Shown one piece after another: positions 10,313 through 39,675 of a stretch of 44,454 bases of DNA. The position numbers and the translations under genes are program-made. The DNA lies in IMG/VR virus record IMGVR_UViG_3300032249_000435, positions 1 to 44,454 of that record; one strand, given 5' to 3'. Numbering within the stretch: position 1 is the stretch's first letter; each line of letters opens with the position of its first letter. Source of the stretch: a virus. Below the pieces are notes generated by a model. It saw only the letters and a list, made by a program, of their open reading frames with translations, did no database searches and was not told the DNA's origin.

Positions 10313-10978
10313 TTACGGATTAGTCCATGAATCAATGGCAATAAACGGGTAAGAAGTTTGTCCTTGAACAAACTCTCCAGCTGTGCCAGTACCAATAACT
10401 TGCAACGTTTTGTACACTTGAGTATAGGTCTGTGATGTAATCTCAGATGAGACTCTCACAGTAAAAGCATTTACAAATAAACGCTTTCCTTGTTCTGTAA
10501 CGTCTCGCTTTGAAACGTCCAGAAGGTCCAAACGACGGACTGTTCCGTCATCTGGCTCCAATACAGCGAACCGCATTGGAATCTTTTTGCTTAGCATTTG
10601 ACCTAAAAGTTGACGGTCATGTCTAGGTTGACGTGCATAAGTAGTGACTTGATAATCAATATTTACTGGAATAGGCCAATGTATATACCAACTCTGTGTT
10701 TCCTCATCATAAACCCCGCCACCTGATGGGTCTGTAGAGGGGTCTGGTAAATAGGACGGCTTTGTTAACCCACGGTGTGCACGTGCAGGGTCTTCTGAAA
10801 TATCAATCATGTCAATTGTTATGTATGGGTATGACTGTTCACGGATTTCCTGGTCAGGTTGCCCAAAGTAAACTTTAACGCTACGAGAGGTAGAGTCAGT
10901 AGTTGACTTTTGGTCAACTACGGTCATACCCAGAAGAAGGTTACGTAAAGCTTCGTCTTCTGACAGAAGAAAGGTCAT
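10313..10978 (-). CDS. Tail terminator/completion-like protein
   Basis: A 221-residue protein directly upstream of the sheath gene; its ATG overlaps the stop of the preceding neck gene (ATGA). It has VKVYFGQPDQEIREQSYPYI near residue 35, a WPIPVNIDYQVTTYARQPRHD block near 110, and a C-terminal beta segment (GQTSYPFIAIDSW). Proteins with this layout, located before the sheath, cap the tail top or join tail to head. The assignment rests on position and general resemblance; no catalytic motif is expected. Confidence 0.6.
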   Translation of the reverse strand: MTFLLSEDEALRNLLLGMTVVDQKSTTDSTSRSVKVYFGQPDQEIREQSYPYITIDMIDISEDPARAHRGLTKPSYLPDPSTDPSGGGVYDEETQSWYIHWPIPVNIDYQVTTYARQPRHDRQLLGQMLSKKIPMRFAVLEPDDGTVRRLDLLDVSKRDVTEQGKRLFVNAFTVRVSSEITSQTYTQVYKTLQVIGTGTAGEFVQGQTSYPFIAIDSWTNP

Positions 10979-11292
10979 AGCTCGCCTCCCATGTGGTGCA
11001 TCATTCGTCCAACGAGGAACTCTTCAGCTTCAGAAGTGTTATTGGAAAAGCGTCTCATAGCTGCAGTCGGACGACTATCTTGTGTTCCATACTCCAAGTC
11101 ATTAATTTGCTTGGTGTGCTTTGGGTGAGCGGCAATTTTAAATTCGCCCTCATGGTAATGGACCTTCATACCCTTAACAATATGGTCAGGCCATCCAGCT
11201 GCGCTGGCTTCATTGCGAAGATGCATAGAAAGATACTGTGCAGTTTCGTGACTGCTCTTGTCTAGCGATGTATGAGCGTGGGTGTCAGCCAT
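10975..11292 (-). CDS. Small neck/virion morphogenesis protein, unassigned
   Basis: A 105-residue protein, first gene of the tail operon, with ribosome site GAAGGTAC. It is rich in His (HAHTSLDKSSHE, MKVHYHEGEFKIAAHPKH, MMHHMGG), has no membrane segment, and ends in a short helix (EAEEFLVGRMMHHMGGEL). Position just before the tail-terminator-like gene suggests a head-to-tail joining or minor head role, as with HK97 gp10-like proteins, whose spacing YGTQDSRPTAAMRRF recalls. The function is not proven. Confidence 0.5.
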   Translation of the reverse strand: MADTHAHTSLDKSSHETAQYLSMHLRNEASAAGWPDHIVKGMKVHYHEGEFKIAAHPKHTKQINDLEYGTQDSRPTAAMRRFSNNTSEAEEFLVGRMMHHMGGEL

Positions 11293-11396
11293 TGTGTACC
11301 TTCTTTTGGGTAAGGCAAAACAACATGGATAAACCCCTTATACAACGCAAGCAGTTGGGACTGCACAGGCCCGCAGCGGATTACTGATAAACCTAT
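11293..11396 (-). promoter_or_regulatory. Intergenic leader of the tail operon; possible promoter
   Basis: This gap lies between the terminator closing the mini-gene cassette and the first tail gene, so a promoter for the tail operon is expected here. On the minus strand a TATAAG element (near 11337-11342) follows GTTG, and a small hairpin GCAGTCCCAACTGC lies just upstream. No convincing -35 box is visible at 17 bases. No gene was seen in this stretch. Confidence 0.3.
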
Positions 11397-11426
11397 GATA
11401 AAGAAGAAAGGCCCCTTTCGGGGCCT
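11397..11426 (-). terminator. Rho-independent terminator after the mini-gene cassette
   Basis: The minus strand reads AGGCCCC-GAAA-GGGGCCT followed by TTCTTCTTT: a perfect 7-base-pair GC-rich stem with a GNRA tetraloop and a U-rich tail. It lies 7 bases after the stop of the Lys-rich gene. It separates the cassette and upstream genes from the tail operon. Confidence 0.9.
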
Positions 11427-11432
11427 AACTAC

Positions 11433-11684
11433 TTACTTCTTTTTAGACTTCTTCTCTCGCTTGTCCTCAGCCTTTTCGCCCTTCTTGCCTTCCTTCTTTT
11501 CGTGCGCTTTTTCTTTTGCCTTAATTTTCTTTACGTTAGCGACATCCATCTTGCGGTCGTCTTCTTGAGACTTAGGCTTGCGATGCTTCTTGTCCATCTT
11601 TTCAAACTGAGCTTTTTCTTCCTTGTCCAGACCCTTAGTTGTCTTAGCATCTTGCTTCTTGTCATTAGTCTTGTTGTACTTCAT
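11433..11684 (-). CDS. Highly charged Lys-rich mini-protein (83 aa)
   Basis: Last gene of the mini-gene chain. It is almost entirely Lys, Glu, Asp, Gln and Ala (KEKAHEKKEGKKGEKAEDKR), with no Cys and a KKSKKK end, so it is probably a disordered or helical basic protein able to bind nucleic acid or an acidic partner. It starts at an ATG sharing its A with the stop of the preceding gene (TAATG) and is followed by a terminator. The family was not recognised. A DNA-condensing or capsid-packaged role is a guess from composition. Confidence 0.72.
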   Translation of the reverse strand: MKYNKTNDKKQDAKTTKGLDKEEKAQFEKMDKKHRKPKSQEDDRKMDVANVKKIKAKEKAHEKKEGKKGEKAEDKREKKSKKK

Positions 11685-11791
11685 TACTTAGACTTCTTTC
11701 CTGAACGAGCAGCTTTGCAAGTATTGCAAGAGCATTTGCAGCCTTTCATGGCCTTAGTCTTGGTGCACTTGCACCCGCATGAGGCGCACAT
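11684..11791 (-). CDS. Metallothionein-like cysteine-rich peptide (35 aa)
   Basis: A 35-residue frame holding eight cysteines at 2, 5, 7, 9, 18, 20, 22 and 25 (CASCGCKC and CKCSCNTC) among Lys residues, the spacing of metallothionein-type metal clusters. Both ends are coupled: its ATG uses the A of the previous stop and its stop shares an A with the next ATG. Its N-terminus MCASCGC matches MCATCGC of the preceding gene, so the two share origin at that end. Metal binding is inferred from Cys pattern only. Confidence 0.7.
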   Translation of the reverse strand: MCASCGCKCTKTKAMKGCKCSCNTCKAARSGKKSK

Positions 11792-11955
11792 TACTTCTTC
11801 TTCTTTCGTAGGGCAGCAAAGTCTGAGCCTTCTAGCTTGCCGTCTTTGTCTACATCAAGCTTCTTTTGCTTAGGTGACATGCCCTTTGTAGCCGCTTTTT
11901 TAGCTGTCTTTTTAGCAGTCTTCTTCTTACCCATACATCCGCAAGTAGCGCACAT
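11791..11955 (-). CDS. Mini-protein with Cys-rich N-terminus and EF-hand-like loop (54 aa)
   Basis: The frame begins MCATCGCMGKKK, continues with Lys/Ala repeats (AKKTAKKAATK) and ends with a sequence that fits a calcium-binding EF-hand loop: D34, D36, D38, G39, L41, E42 and D45 in DVDKDGKLEGSD, followed by F and a basic tail KKKK. The last coordinating residue is D rather than the usual E, as in dockerin-like loops. It is coupled to both neighbours by TAATG. Calcium binding is inferred. Confidence 0.7.
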   Translation of the reverse strand: MCATCGCMGKKKTAKKTAKKAATKGMSPKQKKLDVDKDGKLEGSDFAALRKKKK

Positions 11956-12101
11956 TATTTTTTCTCTGCTTTCTTCTTAGTAGTTGGTTTAGCAATCTTC
12001 TTTTTTCCAGAACCTTCTGGAACACAATTAGGTACTTTTTTGCCGTTCTTCATCTTCATACCCACTTGGACGTATCCGTCCCAACAAGGTCCTTTAGCCA
12101 T
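11955..12101 (-). CDS. CWDGY...VPNCVP mini-protein (48 aa)
   Basis: Residues 5-28 carry the pattern PCWDGYVQVGMK, then KNGKKVPNCVP, followed by a Lys-rich tail (KKKIAKPTTKKKAEKK). From memory this motif with two Cys recurs in structural or protease-linked proteins of aquatic phages, where it is often a tail of a larger protein; here it stands alone. Its ATG lies within the last codons of the preceding gene (8-base overlap) and its stop overlaps the next ATG. The function of the motif is not known to me. Confidence 0.72.
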   Translation of the reverse strand: MAKGPCWDGYVQVGMKMKNGKKVPNCVPEGSGKKKIAKPTTKKKAEKK

Positions 12102-12348
12102 TTGTTTTATGCCAATCTTTAGTCGCTTTAACGCCTTGCTTAATTGTCTTAGACCCAGCCTTTTTTGTCAGGTTAATTTTGTCGTACTTACCTTTGTCAC
12201 GGTTGGTATGGTCAACAATGACCTCACCTTTTTTGTTTTTAGAAATCTTATGCGTTTCCCGTGCAGGCTTTCCTGGGACTTTGATAGCCAGAGTTACTGG
12301 CTTTTCAACTTTAGCTTGGGTCTTTTTTGCCGCAGCCACAGTTGCCAC
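12094..12348 (-). CDS. Lys-rich protein, possibly frameshifted from Cys-rich leader frame
   Basis: The open frame gives up to 84 residues, with a fold-like stretch KPVTLAIKVPGKPARETHKI, then GEVIVDHTNRDKGKY and a basic end. The only start is GTG at 12346-12348, without a good ribosome site. The natural coupled start (TAATG at 12365-12367) opens a different frame that encodes MTPECKCGNCGCGKK and then stops. Dropping one A from the run of six A at 12322-12327 would fuse the two into one protein with the same Cys-then-Lys layout as its neighbours. So this is either a +1 recoded gene, a base-count error, or a GTG-started gene. Confidence 0.6.
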   Translation of the reverse strand: MATVAAAKKTQAKVEKPVTLAIKVPGKPARETHKISKNKKGEVIVDHTNRDKGKYDKINLTKKAGSKTIKQGVKATKDWHKTNG

Positions 12349-12367
12349 ACTTACATTCTGGTGTCAT
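12311..12367 (-). CDS. Cys-rich 18-aa frame, likely N-terminus of the neighbouring Lys-rich protein
   Basis: The ATG 12365-12367 shares its A with the stop of the DUF6496-like gene. It encodes MTPECKCGNCGCGKKDPS, with four Cys in CxCxxCxC order, then a stop. The Cys pattern and the Lys after it resemble MCASCGC and MCATCGC of two other genes in the chain, which suggests this is a real N-terminus that should continue into the frame ending at 12094. As written it is only 18 residues. Confidence 0.5.
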   Translation of the reverse strand: MTPECKCGNCGCGKKDPS

Positions 12368-12543
12368 TATTTTTTCTTCTTCTTTGCTTTTCCAGCCTCA
12401 GACAAAGCAATAGCAATTGCTTGCTTAGGGTTCTTGACGATAGGGCCAGTTTTTGAGCCAGAATGAAGTTTGCCTGCTTTGGCTTCTTTCATTACCTTTT
12501 CTACCTTGCCGTTGCCTTTTTTAGGTGTCGGTGCTTTTGGCAT
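12367..12543 (-). CDS. DUF6496-like mini-protein (58 aa)
   Basis: The 58-residue frame has VEKVMKEAKAGKLHSGSKTG, then PIVKNPKQAIAIALSEAGKA and a Lys tail. The pattern VM.E...GKLHSGSK.GP.V....QAIAIALSEA matches the DUF6496 family of short proteins found in bacteria and phages, with unknown function. It starts at an ATG coupled to the acidic gene (TAATG at 12543) and ends coupled to the next frame. Family match is good by eye. Confidence 0.82.
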   Translation of the reverse strand: MPKAPTPKKGNGKVEKVMKEAKAGKLHSGSKTGPIVKNPKQAIAIALSEAGKAKKKKK

Positions 12544-12668
12544 TACTCTTCTCCTTCTTCATCGTCGTCTTCAAAATCAAACTCTTCATCAAACAAATCT
12601 TCATCTAGCTCAGGCTCAAAATCTTCAAAGTCAACATCATCAATGATGTCATCTTCAAACTCTGACAT
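12543..12668 (-). CDS. Highly acidic mini-protein (41 aa)
   Basis: First gene of the mini-gene chain. Of 41 residues, more than half are Asp or Glu (DEEFDFEDDDEEGEE), with Phe spaced through it. A strong AAAGGAG site lies before the ATG at 12666-12668, so ribosomes probably load here and pass down the coupled chain. Its net negative charge contrasts with the very basic products that follow, which suggests a possible partner or DNA-mimic role (inference). No family recognised. Confidence 0.72.
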   Translation of the reverse strand: MSEFEDDIIDDVDFEDFEPELDEDLFDEEFDFEDDDEEGEE

Positions 12669-12692: not shown

Positions 12693-13190
12693 TTATGATG
12701 CTTTAGCTTGGTAAATAAAGTTGATGTGGAACAGGTCATCTGTAGCAAGAATAAAGGGGGTGGTTGCCGCAAACGTTTGGTCTTGTGTTGCTTGGTTTAT
12801 AAACCAAAGACTGCAAACATTACTGTTTGGTTCTAAGTGCCCCTTAAGACTGTAGAACTTACTTAGACTTGTGTCGTGGATAGTTCCACCCCAAGCATTT
12901 GCGTGAAGTGCTGACTGCTTTGGAAGAGTAACTGAGTAAGCACCAGTGCCAAAGTGAGTAACGTTTGTCATAGGAACGGTAATTTGCACAACAACCATCT
13001 GACCATAATCAAAGTATGTTCCTGTAGCAAGGTTAGAAGACTGTACTAAACCAGTTCCAGACCACACAGGTGTGTAAGAGATTGGTGCTGGAGCAGTGGT
13101 AGTTGAAACTCTTGCGTCTAGATAATCAAGTGCAGCATTTAGCTTTACATCCCAGTTAAGCTCTCCATCAACAGGTTTAATTAGCGGCAC
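12693..13190 (-). CDS. Hypothetical beta-rich virion protein (165 aa)
   Basis: The frame starts at GTG 13188-13190, preceded by GGAAGG, a few bases after the stop of the connector-like gene. After a short helical N-terminus (LNWDVKLNAALDYLDARV) the sequence is beta-rich and small-residue rich (PVWSGTGLVQSSNLATGTYF, SVTLPKQSALHANAWGGTI). It resembles a trimeric fibre-tip or decoration domain, like the C-terminal domains of some phage head or tail fibres. No family is recognised. Confidence 0.65.
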   Translation of the reverse strand: MPLIKPVDGELNWDVKLNAALDYLDARVSTTTAPAPISYTPVWSGTGLVQSSNLATGTYFDYGQMVVVQITVPMTNVTHFGTGAYSVTLPKQSALHANAWGGTIHDTSLSKFYSLKGHLEPNSNVCSLWFINQATQDQTFAATTPFILATDDLFHINFIYQAKAS

Positions 13191-13195
13191 AATAA

Positions 13196-13804
13196 TTACC
13201 TTCCATATCCATAGCTACCATAGCTTCCAGCACCATATCCCAGTCCTCCATCAAGCCTACCCACAACACTTGATGAAGCATAAGTTTGAAACTGTGGGTC
13301 ATTGACAAGCTCTTCGGAGTTAACCTGGTTGCAGTCAATAGTGACTACAGAATAGCGCTCTTTATAGCGTCCACGTGGCATAACTCGTGTAGGAACAAAG
13401 ACTTTTTCTTGAAATGAAACCCTGTCTTTAATATGGGTTGTTGGGTCTGTAACTAATGCTGGAAGGAGTAGGTTTATGTCAGCAACTGATACAACAAGGC
13501 GCAAAGTATCTGTAACGTAGAAGCCTCGTTCATTCATGATGTTTGTAGAACGCATTTGTTGAGCCATAATAACTGGCAGTTCAAAAGGCGTATTCCAACG
13601 ACGTCCTTCACCAGGGGTGCTACTTGATACGTCGTAAATATCGTCAACAACTAAAGCAGGGTTTGCATCTAAGTATGCTTGGTCCCAAACCCACCAAGAT
13701 ACGGTAGTACCAACAGGGTCACGAAGTTCATCAACGATGCCTTCATCCATTGACTTACTTTCGTAGTCAATTTTAAACCTGCCCTGTACTTTAGTTCCAC
13801 GCAT
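13196..13804 (-). CDS. Possible head-tail connector/neck protein (202 aa)
   Basis: The protein starts MRGTKVQGRFKIDYESK and has WWVWDQAYLDANP, a middle of beta strands (YVTDTLRLVVSVADINLLLP), and a Gly/Tyr-rich tail (GYGAGSYGSYGYGR) likely to be disordered. Similar proteins occur in myoviruses as neck or head-closure proteins, but the identification is weak. The gene lies in a group of small structural genes between fibres and tail operon. Confidence 0.5.
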   Translation of the reverse strand: MRGTKVQGRFKIDYESKSMDEGIVDELRDPVGTTVSWWVWDQAYLDANPALVVDDIYDVSSSTPGEGRRWNTPFELPVIMAQQMRSTNIMNERGFYVTDTLRLVVSVADINLLLPALVTDPTTHIKDRVSFQEKVFVPTRVMPRGRYKERYSVVTIDCNQVNSEELVNDPQFQTYASSSVVGRLDGGLGYGAGSYGSYGYGR

Positions 13805-37625: not shown

Positions 37626-39362
37626 TTAACTCTTGTCTACTGTTCTCCTCTGAGGAATTTTAGTTCCGTAGGCTTCAGTGACAAGTCTTTCTCTGATTGC
37701 AGCTTCTTGGCTCTTTTCAATGCCCATCATTTGCTGCTGAGTTGGGTCCTTAAGAGCATCATCAGTTTGAGGGCCCTCAATGCCGTCTCCCATGATGTCG
37801 CCATCACCGAGTTCGGTAGGTTGCATAGGGATAGCAGAGTTTCCATCAGGTCCTGGCATCATGCCAGTCATATCCATAATTGCTTTCTGGATTTGAATCT
37901 TCACAAGTTGTAAGGCGCCGTCTGCTCCAGCATCAGAGATTAGCTCTTGACGAATCTCTTGTAGCTTTTCTTCTGGGAATTCCTCGCCAAGGGTACGCAA
38001 AGCACCTTCTTTAGACTCAAGACCCATACCAATCTTAGTTTGAATCTCATTCAAGATAATTAGTTTATCTAGTGGAAGAGGTTGAGGGAACTGAACATAG
38101 TTCTGAAAAGTAATTGGGTCTGTAAAATCAAGCTGTGTTAACTGACCTTCTTTGATTGGGCCGTCTTCATCGGGGTTGTACATAAACTGCGTTGGTTCTT
38201 TTAGAGCAAGAGTGCGAAGAGCAAGCTCATTAATCTTCTCAATACCGATACCGTACTGAGCAACCTTCTGTGAGTAACGGTTCATCAATGGCTGATACTG
38301 AATAGAAAGTGCAACACCAGAGGTATTAGAAATAGGTTGAACTTGACCCAGTGCGGTTTCTGGGATGTTCATTAGTTCGTGCATTGAACGCTTTAGAAGT
38401 TCTAGGTACTTCAAGGCTCCGTCAATACCTTGTGCACCGCCTTCTAGGTTGAAGACCTGAGCATCTTTTGGAAGACCGCCCCAAACCTTCTTTGCGCCCT
38501 TTTCTAAGTTAGAAGCTTTAGCACCAACAATAACTGTCACAGGAGAAGCGTGATAGTTAATGATGTCTGCTACGTCAGTTGATATTTCGTTGTAGGCGCG
38601 GTTTATTGTGATGATGTCGTGTGCGTCTGGGAGACCCCAAGGTGAACCAGAAACTGGAACGTTTGGTATGTGTACAACAGGAACTAATCCAAGTGGATTA
38701 GGACGAGAGTCAATTAACTCGTCGTTGATGTACTCTTCAATTGTGTCGTCTGTAAGAATTTCAGTGTAAGTAAATACTTGACGTGTTCCTTCAAGTGATG
38801 TTCCCCAGAAACGATACTTCTGCTTAAAACGCAGTAGACGAGTACGGTCATGTGGGTGGAACTCAGGAAAAGCAAAGGAAGAGTTAAGAGGAAGAAGACG
38901 AACTTTACCTGGATGGTTTCCTCCTGCAGAGTCTACCCAAGGTTCTTCATAAGCAATCTTTACAAAACAGTCTCCAGTAATTCCGCCTTGTTGCCCCATC
39001 TCAAGTAGAACACGCATCTTATCGTTGTCTACTTCCCAGATTCGTTCTAGGCGGTCTGGAATAATTGCTTCCGTTGCTTTTGGTGAACGGAAGTGAACAC
39101 CTTTACCAAATACAAAACGTGCTAAAAAGTCATTGAATGCACGGTAGTAATTTACCGCAATCTGCATTTCTCCAGACTCACGGCGATAGCCCCAGTGGTG
39201 ACCCAGGTACATCGCCCAGTTTAGTGAGTATCGGTTTAAACGTGGGCCGTGTACTTCAAACTCTTCGTCAGCTAACTCTACTAATCCGAGGGGAGAAATA
39301 GAGATGGTTAAATCGCTGGATGCGGCTCTATACGATGGTGGAGAAAAATCAAGATATGACAT
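37626..39362 (-). CDS. Portal protein (578 aa)
   Basis: The protein has the layout of phage portals: YLGHHWGYRRESGEMQIAVN near 52, LEMGQQGGITGDCFVKIAYE near 120, a wing/crown segment (NIPETALGQVQPISNTSGVA at about 340-360) and a long C-terminal helix region with Met/Gln (QKAIMDMTGMMPGPDGN). Its size is normal for a 12-fold portal ring. The ATG shares its A with the stop of the preceding gene (TAATG). It leads directly to scaffold and capsid genes, as expected. Confidence 0.92.
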   Translation of the reverse strand: MSYLDFSPPSYRAASSDLTISISPLGLVELADEEFEVHGPRLNRYSLNWAMYLGHHWGYRRESGEMQIAVNYYRAFNDFLARFVFGKGVHFRSPKATEAIIPDRLERIWEVDNDKMRVLLEMGQQGGITGDCFVKIAYEEPWVDSAGGNHPGKVRLLPLNSSFAFPEFHPHDRTRLLRFKQKYRFWGTSLEGTRQVFTYTEILTDDTIEEYINDELIDSRPNPLGLVPVVHIPNVPVSGSPWGLPDAHDIITINRAYNEISTDVADIINYHASPVTVIVGAKASNLEKGAKKVWGGLPKDAQVFNLEGGAQGIDGALKYLELLKRSMHELMNIPETALGQVQPISNTSGVALSIQYQPLMNRYSQKVAQYGIGIEKINELALRTLALKEPTQFMYNPDEDGPIKEGQLTQLDFTDPITFQNYVQFPQPLPLDKLIILNEIQTKIGMGLESKEGALRTLGEEFPEEKLQEIRQELISDAGADGALQLVKIQIQKAIMDMTGMMPGPDGNSAIPMQPTELGDGDIMGDGIEGPQTDDALKDPTQQQMMGIEKSQEAAIRERLVTEAYGTKIPQRRTVDKS

Positions 39363-39628
39363 TACTTATCTTTCTTCTTATCTTTCTTAGAGTCTTTTTT
39401 CTTATCAGCAACTGTAGCATTTTTTTTCTTAACATCGCTAGCGTGCTTTTTCTTGCGCATTTCTAATTTGCGAGTTTGTTCATTTGTTTCAATAAATTTT
39501 CCGCCTGATTGGATGTAGCGTTCATGAACCCAGTGACTTGCTCCAGGGTTAGGGTAGTTAGAGTACTTAGCCTTTGCCTGAGCAACAATCATTAAATAAA
39601 GTTTTTCATTTGCTGGTTTACTTGCCAT
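39362..39628 (-). CDS. Small Lys-tailed protein, DUF5872-like (88 aa)
   Basis: The best start is ATG 39626-39628, after a near-perfect AGGAGGAG site, giving 88 residues; an upstream ATG would run 33 bases further through the ribosome site. The folded part reads YLMIVAQAKAKYSNYP, SHWVHERYIQSGGKF, which recalls the small DUF5872-type proteins found with phage and virus structural genes. A long Lys-rich tail follows (KKKHASDVKKKNATVADKKK). It ends coupled to the portal gene. Function unknown. Confidence 0.65.
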   Translation of the reverse strand: MASKPANEKLYLMIVAQAKAKYSNYPNPGASHWVHERYIQSGGKFIETNEQTRKLEMRKKKHASDVKKKNATVADKKKDSKKDKKKDK

Positions 39629-39653
39629 TACATCTCCTCCTGATAACCCGATA

Positions 39654-39675
39654 GCCCCCACATTACTGTGGGGGC
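39654..39675 (-). other. Intergenic hairpin upstream of the DUF5872-like gene
   Basis: A perfect 9-base-pair stem (GCCCCCACA / TGTGGGGGC) with a 4-base loop lies between two genes of the head operon. No T run follows on the minus strand. It is similar in kind to the hairpins near 35550 and 41790, so it may be an RNA-processing or stability element. Confidence 0.8.

Follow-up and report, generated by a model that had tools for sequence, protein, structure and literature searches.

A recurring island of overlapping microprotein genes between the fibre-adaptor and tail genes of a freshwater contractile-tail phage

The window analyzed here, a stretch of 44,454 nucleotides constituting IMG/VR virus record IMGVR_UViG_3300032249_000435, comes from a freshwater contractile-tail phage that is distantly related to Streptomyces phages BRock and Alone3. 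Its structural genes occupy the minus strand, in the order terminase, portal, capsid, connector, long fibre and collagen-like genes, connector-type 202-aa protein, fibre adaptor, the island described below, gp10-like protein, tail terminator, sheath, and tube. Upstream, the island is flanked by the gene for the connector-type 202-aa protein (13196 to 13804, minus strand), a homologue of Alone3 gp85, and by that for a fibre- or tailspike-like protein with an N-terminal adaptor (12693 to 13190, minus strand), the N terminus of which resembles Alone3 gp86 (62% over 24 aa). Downstream lie the gene for a 105-aa protein (10975 to 11292, minus strand), marked out by position and conservation, which we take to be gp10-like and for which a Pfam search gave no match, and the tail terminator gene (10313 to 10978, minus strand), a homologue of GiJojo gp79 and Alone3 gp89. 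Streptomyces phages BRock, Alone3, LuckySocke, GiJojo, and pSt2308 have homologous capsid, connector, sheath, tube, and tail terminator genes in identical order (63% for the window capsid and 33% for its tail terminator, versus homologues in such phages as Alone3). However, in these phages the tail-fibre genes adjoin the tail terminator gene directly, and the island families were absent from the GiJojo stretch and the actinobacterial genome loci of the same backbone that were searched. Elsewhere in the window, beside the portal gene, a 99-aa protein (39362 to 39661, minus strand) ends in a Lys-rich tail (KKKDSKKDKKKDK) and had no Pfam match.

The first-pass annotation had listed eight short frames here, and we confirmed all of them (41, 58, 18, 84, 48, 54, 35, and 83 aa) from 12668 down to 11433; all are on the minus strand, a point on which that annotation was silent. 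Nearly all joints had been said to overlap, and six of the seven indeed share 1 or 8 bases. Five of these (41/58, 58/18, 48/54, 54/35, and 35/83) are TAATG joints with a single shared base, and the 84/48 joint shares eight bases (ATGGCTAA). The 18/84 joint, on the other hand, overlaps by 38 nt if the 84-aa frame starts from the GTG at 12348 and by 29 nt if it starts from the GTG at 12339. The frames had also been placed between two terminators or gaps. Downstream, there is an intrinsic terminator (AGGCCCC-GAAA-GGGGCCT with a T-rich tail; 11409 to 11426, minus strand) with a 7-bp stem and a 4-base loop, and its hairpin is retained in relatives with altered stem sequences. Upstream, no terminator was found and merely a 24-nt gap separates the island from the fibre-adaptor gene, which makes the island the probable 3′ terminus of the preceding (fibre) transcription unit.

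Following the island terminator, and serving as the island's downstream boundary, is a conserved leader with two covarying hairpins (11319 to 11402, minus strand; 27 unique sequences), present as a single copy in the window. Covariation in stem 1 includes the pairs CCCG/CGGG, GTTC/GAAC, TACC/GGTA, and ATATC/GATAT, among others, while stem 2 is formed by GCAGT/ACTGC or GTAGT/ACTAC and is followed by CTTGCGYT-N4-AAGGGG. The leader has no match in Rfam, and an Rfam search of the island itself returned nothing credible. A possible 13-residue leader peptide (MLFCLTQKKVHNG; 11285 to 11326, minus strand), accompanied by the ribosome-site-like sequence AAGGGG, shares 8 nt with the beginning of the gp10-like gene; in most relatives, the short frame at this site opens with ATGCT or ATGTT.

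Relatives were collected with the tail terminator and the DUF6496 peptide as queries, which yielded 64 usable rows, representing the window and about 62 other viral contigs (one contig is included twice, as L003 and L131). In these contigs, the island recurs at one site and on the same strand, following the connector and fibre-adaptor genes and preceding the gp10-like and tail terminator genes, and relatives of every window family were found at the matching site, in agreement with the earlier suggestion of a cassette. Clustering with global alignment defined about 15 recurring families, which follow the order acidic, DUF6496, F06, VDH (the 84-aa family), DUF6321, CWDGY, F10, F11, Cys families, and Lys-rich; agreement with this order in pairwise comparisons, near-duplicates included, is 98.6%. 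Gene content varies, with 29 different strings among 41 nonidentical complete islands, and island size ranges from 4 to 11 genes and from 955 to 2938 nt. Across islands, 141 of 294 nonredundant joints share 1 nt and 33 of 294 share 8 nt, both of which are mildly favored by the chaining of open reading frames. In a tblastn search of a phage collection with the low-complexity filter on, the 84-, 54-, and 35-aa genes were not found in any isolated phage.

Short frames in purine-rich DNA might have arisen by chance or be decaying, and the Lys/Glu low complexity and very small size of the present ones are in line with such an origin. However, dN/dS is between 0.06 and 0.16 within all seven larger window families, codon position 3 carries 0.62 to 0.72 of their substitutions, and starts, stops, and order are kept. 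As sequence pairs share ancestry, the dN/dS and third-position values are a description rather than a test on independent samples. Judged by these substitution patterns, purifying selection acts on the seven larger families; with conserved order and selection both in evidence, we rejected the chance-frame reading for the seven longer frames and consider it highly improbable overall. Thus, the outcome that would have spoken against the first-pass annotation, frames with neither relatives nor coding signal, is clearly not what was found.

The proteins differ strongly in charge, with one acidic protein at −26 and six basic ones at +10 to +15. The acidic 41-aa protein is encoded by the first island gene (12543 to 12668, minus strand; dN/dS, 0.16), and a related acidic protein opens nearly all islands. 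It is followed by a 58-aa protein (12367 to 12543, minus strand; net charge, +14; dN/dS, 0.10) that had been called DUF6496-like, rightly so: it matches PF20106 with an E value of 3e-8 and 34.3 bits, above the Pfam gathering threshold of 24. Some islands of relatives additionally include a gene for DUF6321 (PF19846). Both DUF6496 and DUF6321 are uncharacterized families, neither being named in the literature searched; in the island, they are members of an ordered, co-encoded microprotein cassette. The 48-aa CWDGY...GMKMKNGKKVPNCVP protein (11955 to 12101, minus strand; net charge, +11; dN/dS, 0.06) has invariant C-W-x-G-Y and VPNCVP residues in 16 of 16 aligned sequences, and its model shows, with low confidence, at best a β-hairpin and a disordered tail. 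Finally, the last island gene encodes an 83-aa Lys/Glu-rich protein with 36% Lys (11433 to 11684, minus strand; dN/dS, 0.10), relatives of which are present in 53 of 64 islands.

The 18-aa frame MTPECKCGNCGCGKKDPS (12311 to 12367, minus strand), with the pattern CxCxxCxC, starts with ATG at a TAATG junction. Its core, CKCGNCGCGKK, is encoded in 42 stretches of viral contigs, each time in a short open reading frame with a nearby ATG and stop, and 38 of 40 newly fetched loci show the phage backbone of the window. Its position varies, being before the VDH gene in one group and before the Lys-rich gene in another. Since the search pattern fixes residues, pattern-matched sequences were excluded as evidence of synonymous change. 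By its recurrence as an intact frame, the 18-aa frame appears to be a conserved microgene. Its neighbor, the 84-aa basic protein of the VDH...KINLTKKAG family (12094 to 12348, minus strand), could be started from the GTG at either position given above or be reached from the 18-aa frame through a +1 shift. The family is found in 39 of 41 nonidentical islands, with a dN/dS of 0.11, and is predicted to be folded: the model has β strands and C-terminal helices (pLDDT, 78.6 overall and about 90 around residues 61 to 80). Fold searches gave no credible match; the best VIA Z score was 3.6, and Foldseek gave no E value below 0.001.

The lack of an ATG start in the 84-aa frame raises the question of whether the two frames constitute a single gene, connected through a +1 (or −2) shift on the run of six to eight adenines, with the product MTPECKCGNCGCGKK-TQAKVEKPVTL..., which would have the same Cys-then-Lys layout as its neighbors. 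Among nine sequence variants, substitutions immediately ahead of the overlap leave the residues of the 18-aa frame unchanged (TGY and AAR), and those beyond the adenine run leave the residues of the 84-aa frame unchanged, as in L083, where AAG to AAA alters the 18-aa frame, a pattern consistent with such a shift. However, islands of other phages carry the 18-aa peptide by itself at a different position, and in several relatives the 84-aa family member begins with an in-frame ATG, its N terminus being about as long as that of the product from the GTG at 12339. We regard the shift as rather unlikely.

The Cys-then-Lys layout noted earlier is indeed common to several families. At least one protein with MCxxCxC at the absolute N terminus, nearly always as MCxxCGC, is encoded in 62 of 64 islands. 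Among 376 unique island frames, CxxCxC starts at residue 2 in 60 (59 of these 60 unique N-terminal MCxxCxC proteins having CxxCGC there); the one other start position is residue 7, in the 18-aa family. In the window, this head (MCATCGC) opens the 54-aa protein (11791 to 11955, minus strand; dN/dS, 0.12), followed by a Lys linker and an EF-hand-like segment, SPKQKK...DFAALRKKKK. Escherichia coli HypB binds nickel through an N-terminal MCxxCGC motif. The NCBIfam profile HypB_prefix_1 (NF053667) matched the 54-aa protein below the cutoff (E value, 0.0011) and aligned from residue 1, in profile and protein alike, in 8 of 10 MCxxCxC proteins (E values, 0.0005 to 0.2), with a best score of 21.5 bits against a curated cutoff of 30; such scores indicate a shared layout, not HypB membership. 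Unlike HypB, the MCxxCGC island proteins contain no G3E GTPase domain, measure only about 28 to 75 aa, and have Lys-rich tails. A pattern scan gave at least 100 unique MCxxCGC proteins; among the matches listed, none is 80 residues or longer, and 85 of 111 loci have the phage backbone of the window. Nonbasic tails mark a further MCxxCGC microprotein family (MCLECGCNQPxxSHG...), seen at L417, L422, L438, L457, L465, and other loci, in which the window phage backbone was not detected.

The 35-aa peptide (11684 to 11791, minus strand; dN/dS, 0.09) resembles a miniature metallothionein, with the mirror-like pattern CxxCxCxC-x8-CxCxCxxC; all eight Cys residues are invariant in nine aligned sequences, and the mirror layout is present in 16 of 27 unique relatives. 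The metallothionein-like label of the first-pass annotation is apt as far as the very small size and the eight conserved Cys residues in CxC and CxxC spacing go, features shared with bacterial and eukaryotic metallothioneins, but the peptide matches no known family (Pfam and PDB sequences) and departs from metallothioneins in its mirror-like layout and 26% Lys; metal binding is a prediction. No relative was found in the cellular genome contigs scanned, and the literature searched contained no paper on a phage metallothionein. With the N-terminal MCxxCGC placed as in the HypB nickel site and the eight-Cys mirror, the metal-handling idea put forward earlier is plausible, and metal binding by the Cys-bearing proteins appears to be a good lead.

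The EF-hand-like description of the 54-aa protein fits the window copy (DVDKDGKLEGSD), which has DxDxDGxLxxxD as in EF-hand and dockerin loops (E values of 0.0025 for Dockerin_1 and 0.0096 for EF-hand_1, both below the cutoff), but not the family: the calcium ligands are retained in only 8 of 34 unique relatives and missing from the other 26. Calcium binding was accordingly ruled out as a shared, conserved function. The EF-like module is shuffled, occurring alone or fused to MCxxCGC heads, an MCKxCGCGC head, or the N-terminal half of DUF6496; natural fusions with this DUF6496 half and with the MCKxCGCGC head were seen in L113, L125, and L141. In other phages, DUF6496 and DUF6321, sometimes with F10 and F11, co-occur (32 loci with at least two island families), and the nearest large genes tested beside DUF6496 or DUF6321 in unrelated phages include those for portal, major head protein, and terminase. 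The CWDGY motif is found inside large proteins of other phages, with DUF6321 in 10 of 93 and with the EF-like module in 2 of 93. This fusion pattern suggests that neighboring island modules can work together. One large CWDGY protein has a virion structural N-terminal domain, others have a cytidyltransferase domain, and some adjoin ribonucleotide reductase genes, with cytidyltransferase genes also among the neighbors of CWDGY proteins; given such mixed neighbors, a virion-only context for the motif was rejected.

The explanation that we favor, tentatively and with somewhat less than even confidence, sees in the island an accessory cassette, expressed late and with coupled translation, of basic microproteins that bind nucleic acid or the virion, with soft-metal sites on the Cys-bearing ones. 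The gene anatomy, the selection, and the stable order with its gains and losses are shown; late timing and coupling are inferred from where the genes lie and how they join. Ribosomes would step from gene to gene at the TAATG or ATGGCTAA joints, producing one acidic microprotein along with several that are strongly basic. The most probable target of the basic ones would be nucleic acid or the virion during assembly, a role that charge and context make plausible. Proteins with N-terminal MCxxCGC, CxCxxCxC, or eight Cys residues would hold a soft metal, for example Ni, Zn, or Cu, that could stabilize them or allow cross-linking, and the acidic first product may, speculatively, keep the basic ones soluble or partner them. 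This explanation draws on the same-strand position between fibre-adaptor and tail genes, the agreement in order, the shared-base joints, purifying selection, the net charges, N-terminal MCxxCxC, the HypB-prefix alignments, the portal, head, and terminase neighbors, and the CWDGY-DUF6321 fusions. The virion or nucleic-acid role proposed earlier is supported only indirectly, by the late structural operon, the strong positive charge, and the occurrence of the families beside portal, capsid, and terminase genes in unrelated phages. Against the favored explanation stand the mixed CWDGY neighbors, the HypB-prefix scores below cutoff, and the absence of a fold match for the well-folded 84-aa member. 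In the chlorella virus PBCV-1, which is unrelated and offers an analogy of possible role only, several basic virion proteins have been proposed to neutralize packaged DNA (PMC3281028); the same paper states that there is no evidence for basic proteins doing much to neutralize phage DNA, which also counts against our explanation (PMC3281028).

Two other accounts give the peptides a different main task. The MCxxCGC, CxCxxCxC, and eight-Cys peptides might serve primarily to capture or supply Ni, Zn, or Cu at a late stage of infection, in metallothionein-like or HypB-like fashion, the Lys-rich tails serving only solubility or contact with RNA or ribosomes. Fixed Cys positions beside variable tails, the strict N-terminal placement as in HypB, and the MCxxCGC microproteins of other phages with unrelated, nonbasic tails are in favor of this account, but the DUF6496, VDH, Lys-rich 83-aa, and acidic families are conserved without Cys, and no gene for a metal enzyme or transporter was noticed beside the island; we consider it rather unlikely. 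Less likely still is a host take-over set, in which small peptides would target the RNA polymerase, ribosomes, or nucleoid of the host. The gain and loss of tiny genes at one locus, apparent from the varied content strings, resembles accessory gene islands; however, the locus lies within the late structural operon with its order conserved in distant relatives, which argues mildly against take-over, and a consensus scan gave no clear separate early promoter, only chance-level matches.

New points emerging from this work are the N-terminal MCxxCxC, the eight-Cys mirror, the loss of EF ligands, the CWDGY/DUF6321 fusions, and the covarying leader. The island also illustrates how conserved phage genes of 15 to 90 codons, one of them of 18, can escape gene-calling size cutoffs, and the HypB-like N-terminal metal site provides a concrete, testable lead for proteins otherwise without an assigned function. 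A bolder notion, which we hold to be doubtful, is that they represent an undescribed class of phage microproteins, in which a HypB-type N-terminal nickel or soft-metal MCxxCGC site on a Lys-rich tail is built into or packaged in the virion together with basic partner peptides and one acidic one. If true, the DNA or particle of these tailed phages would carry basic proteins loaded with metal. Should any of the island peptides be virion proteins, they would be relevant to the question of whether basic proteins are ever employed by tailed phages on their DNA.
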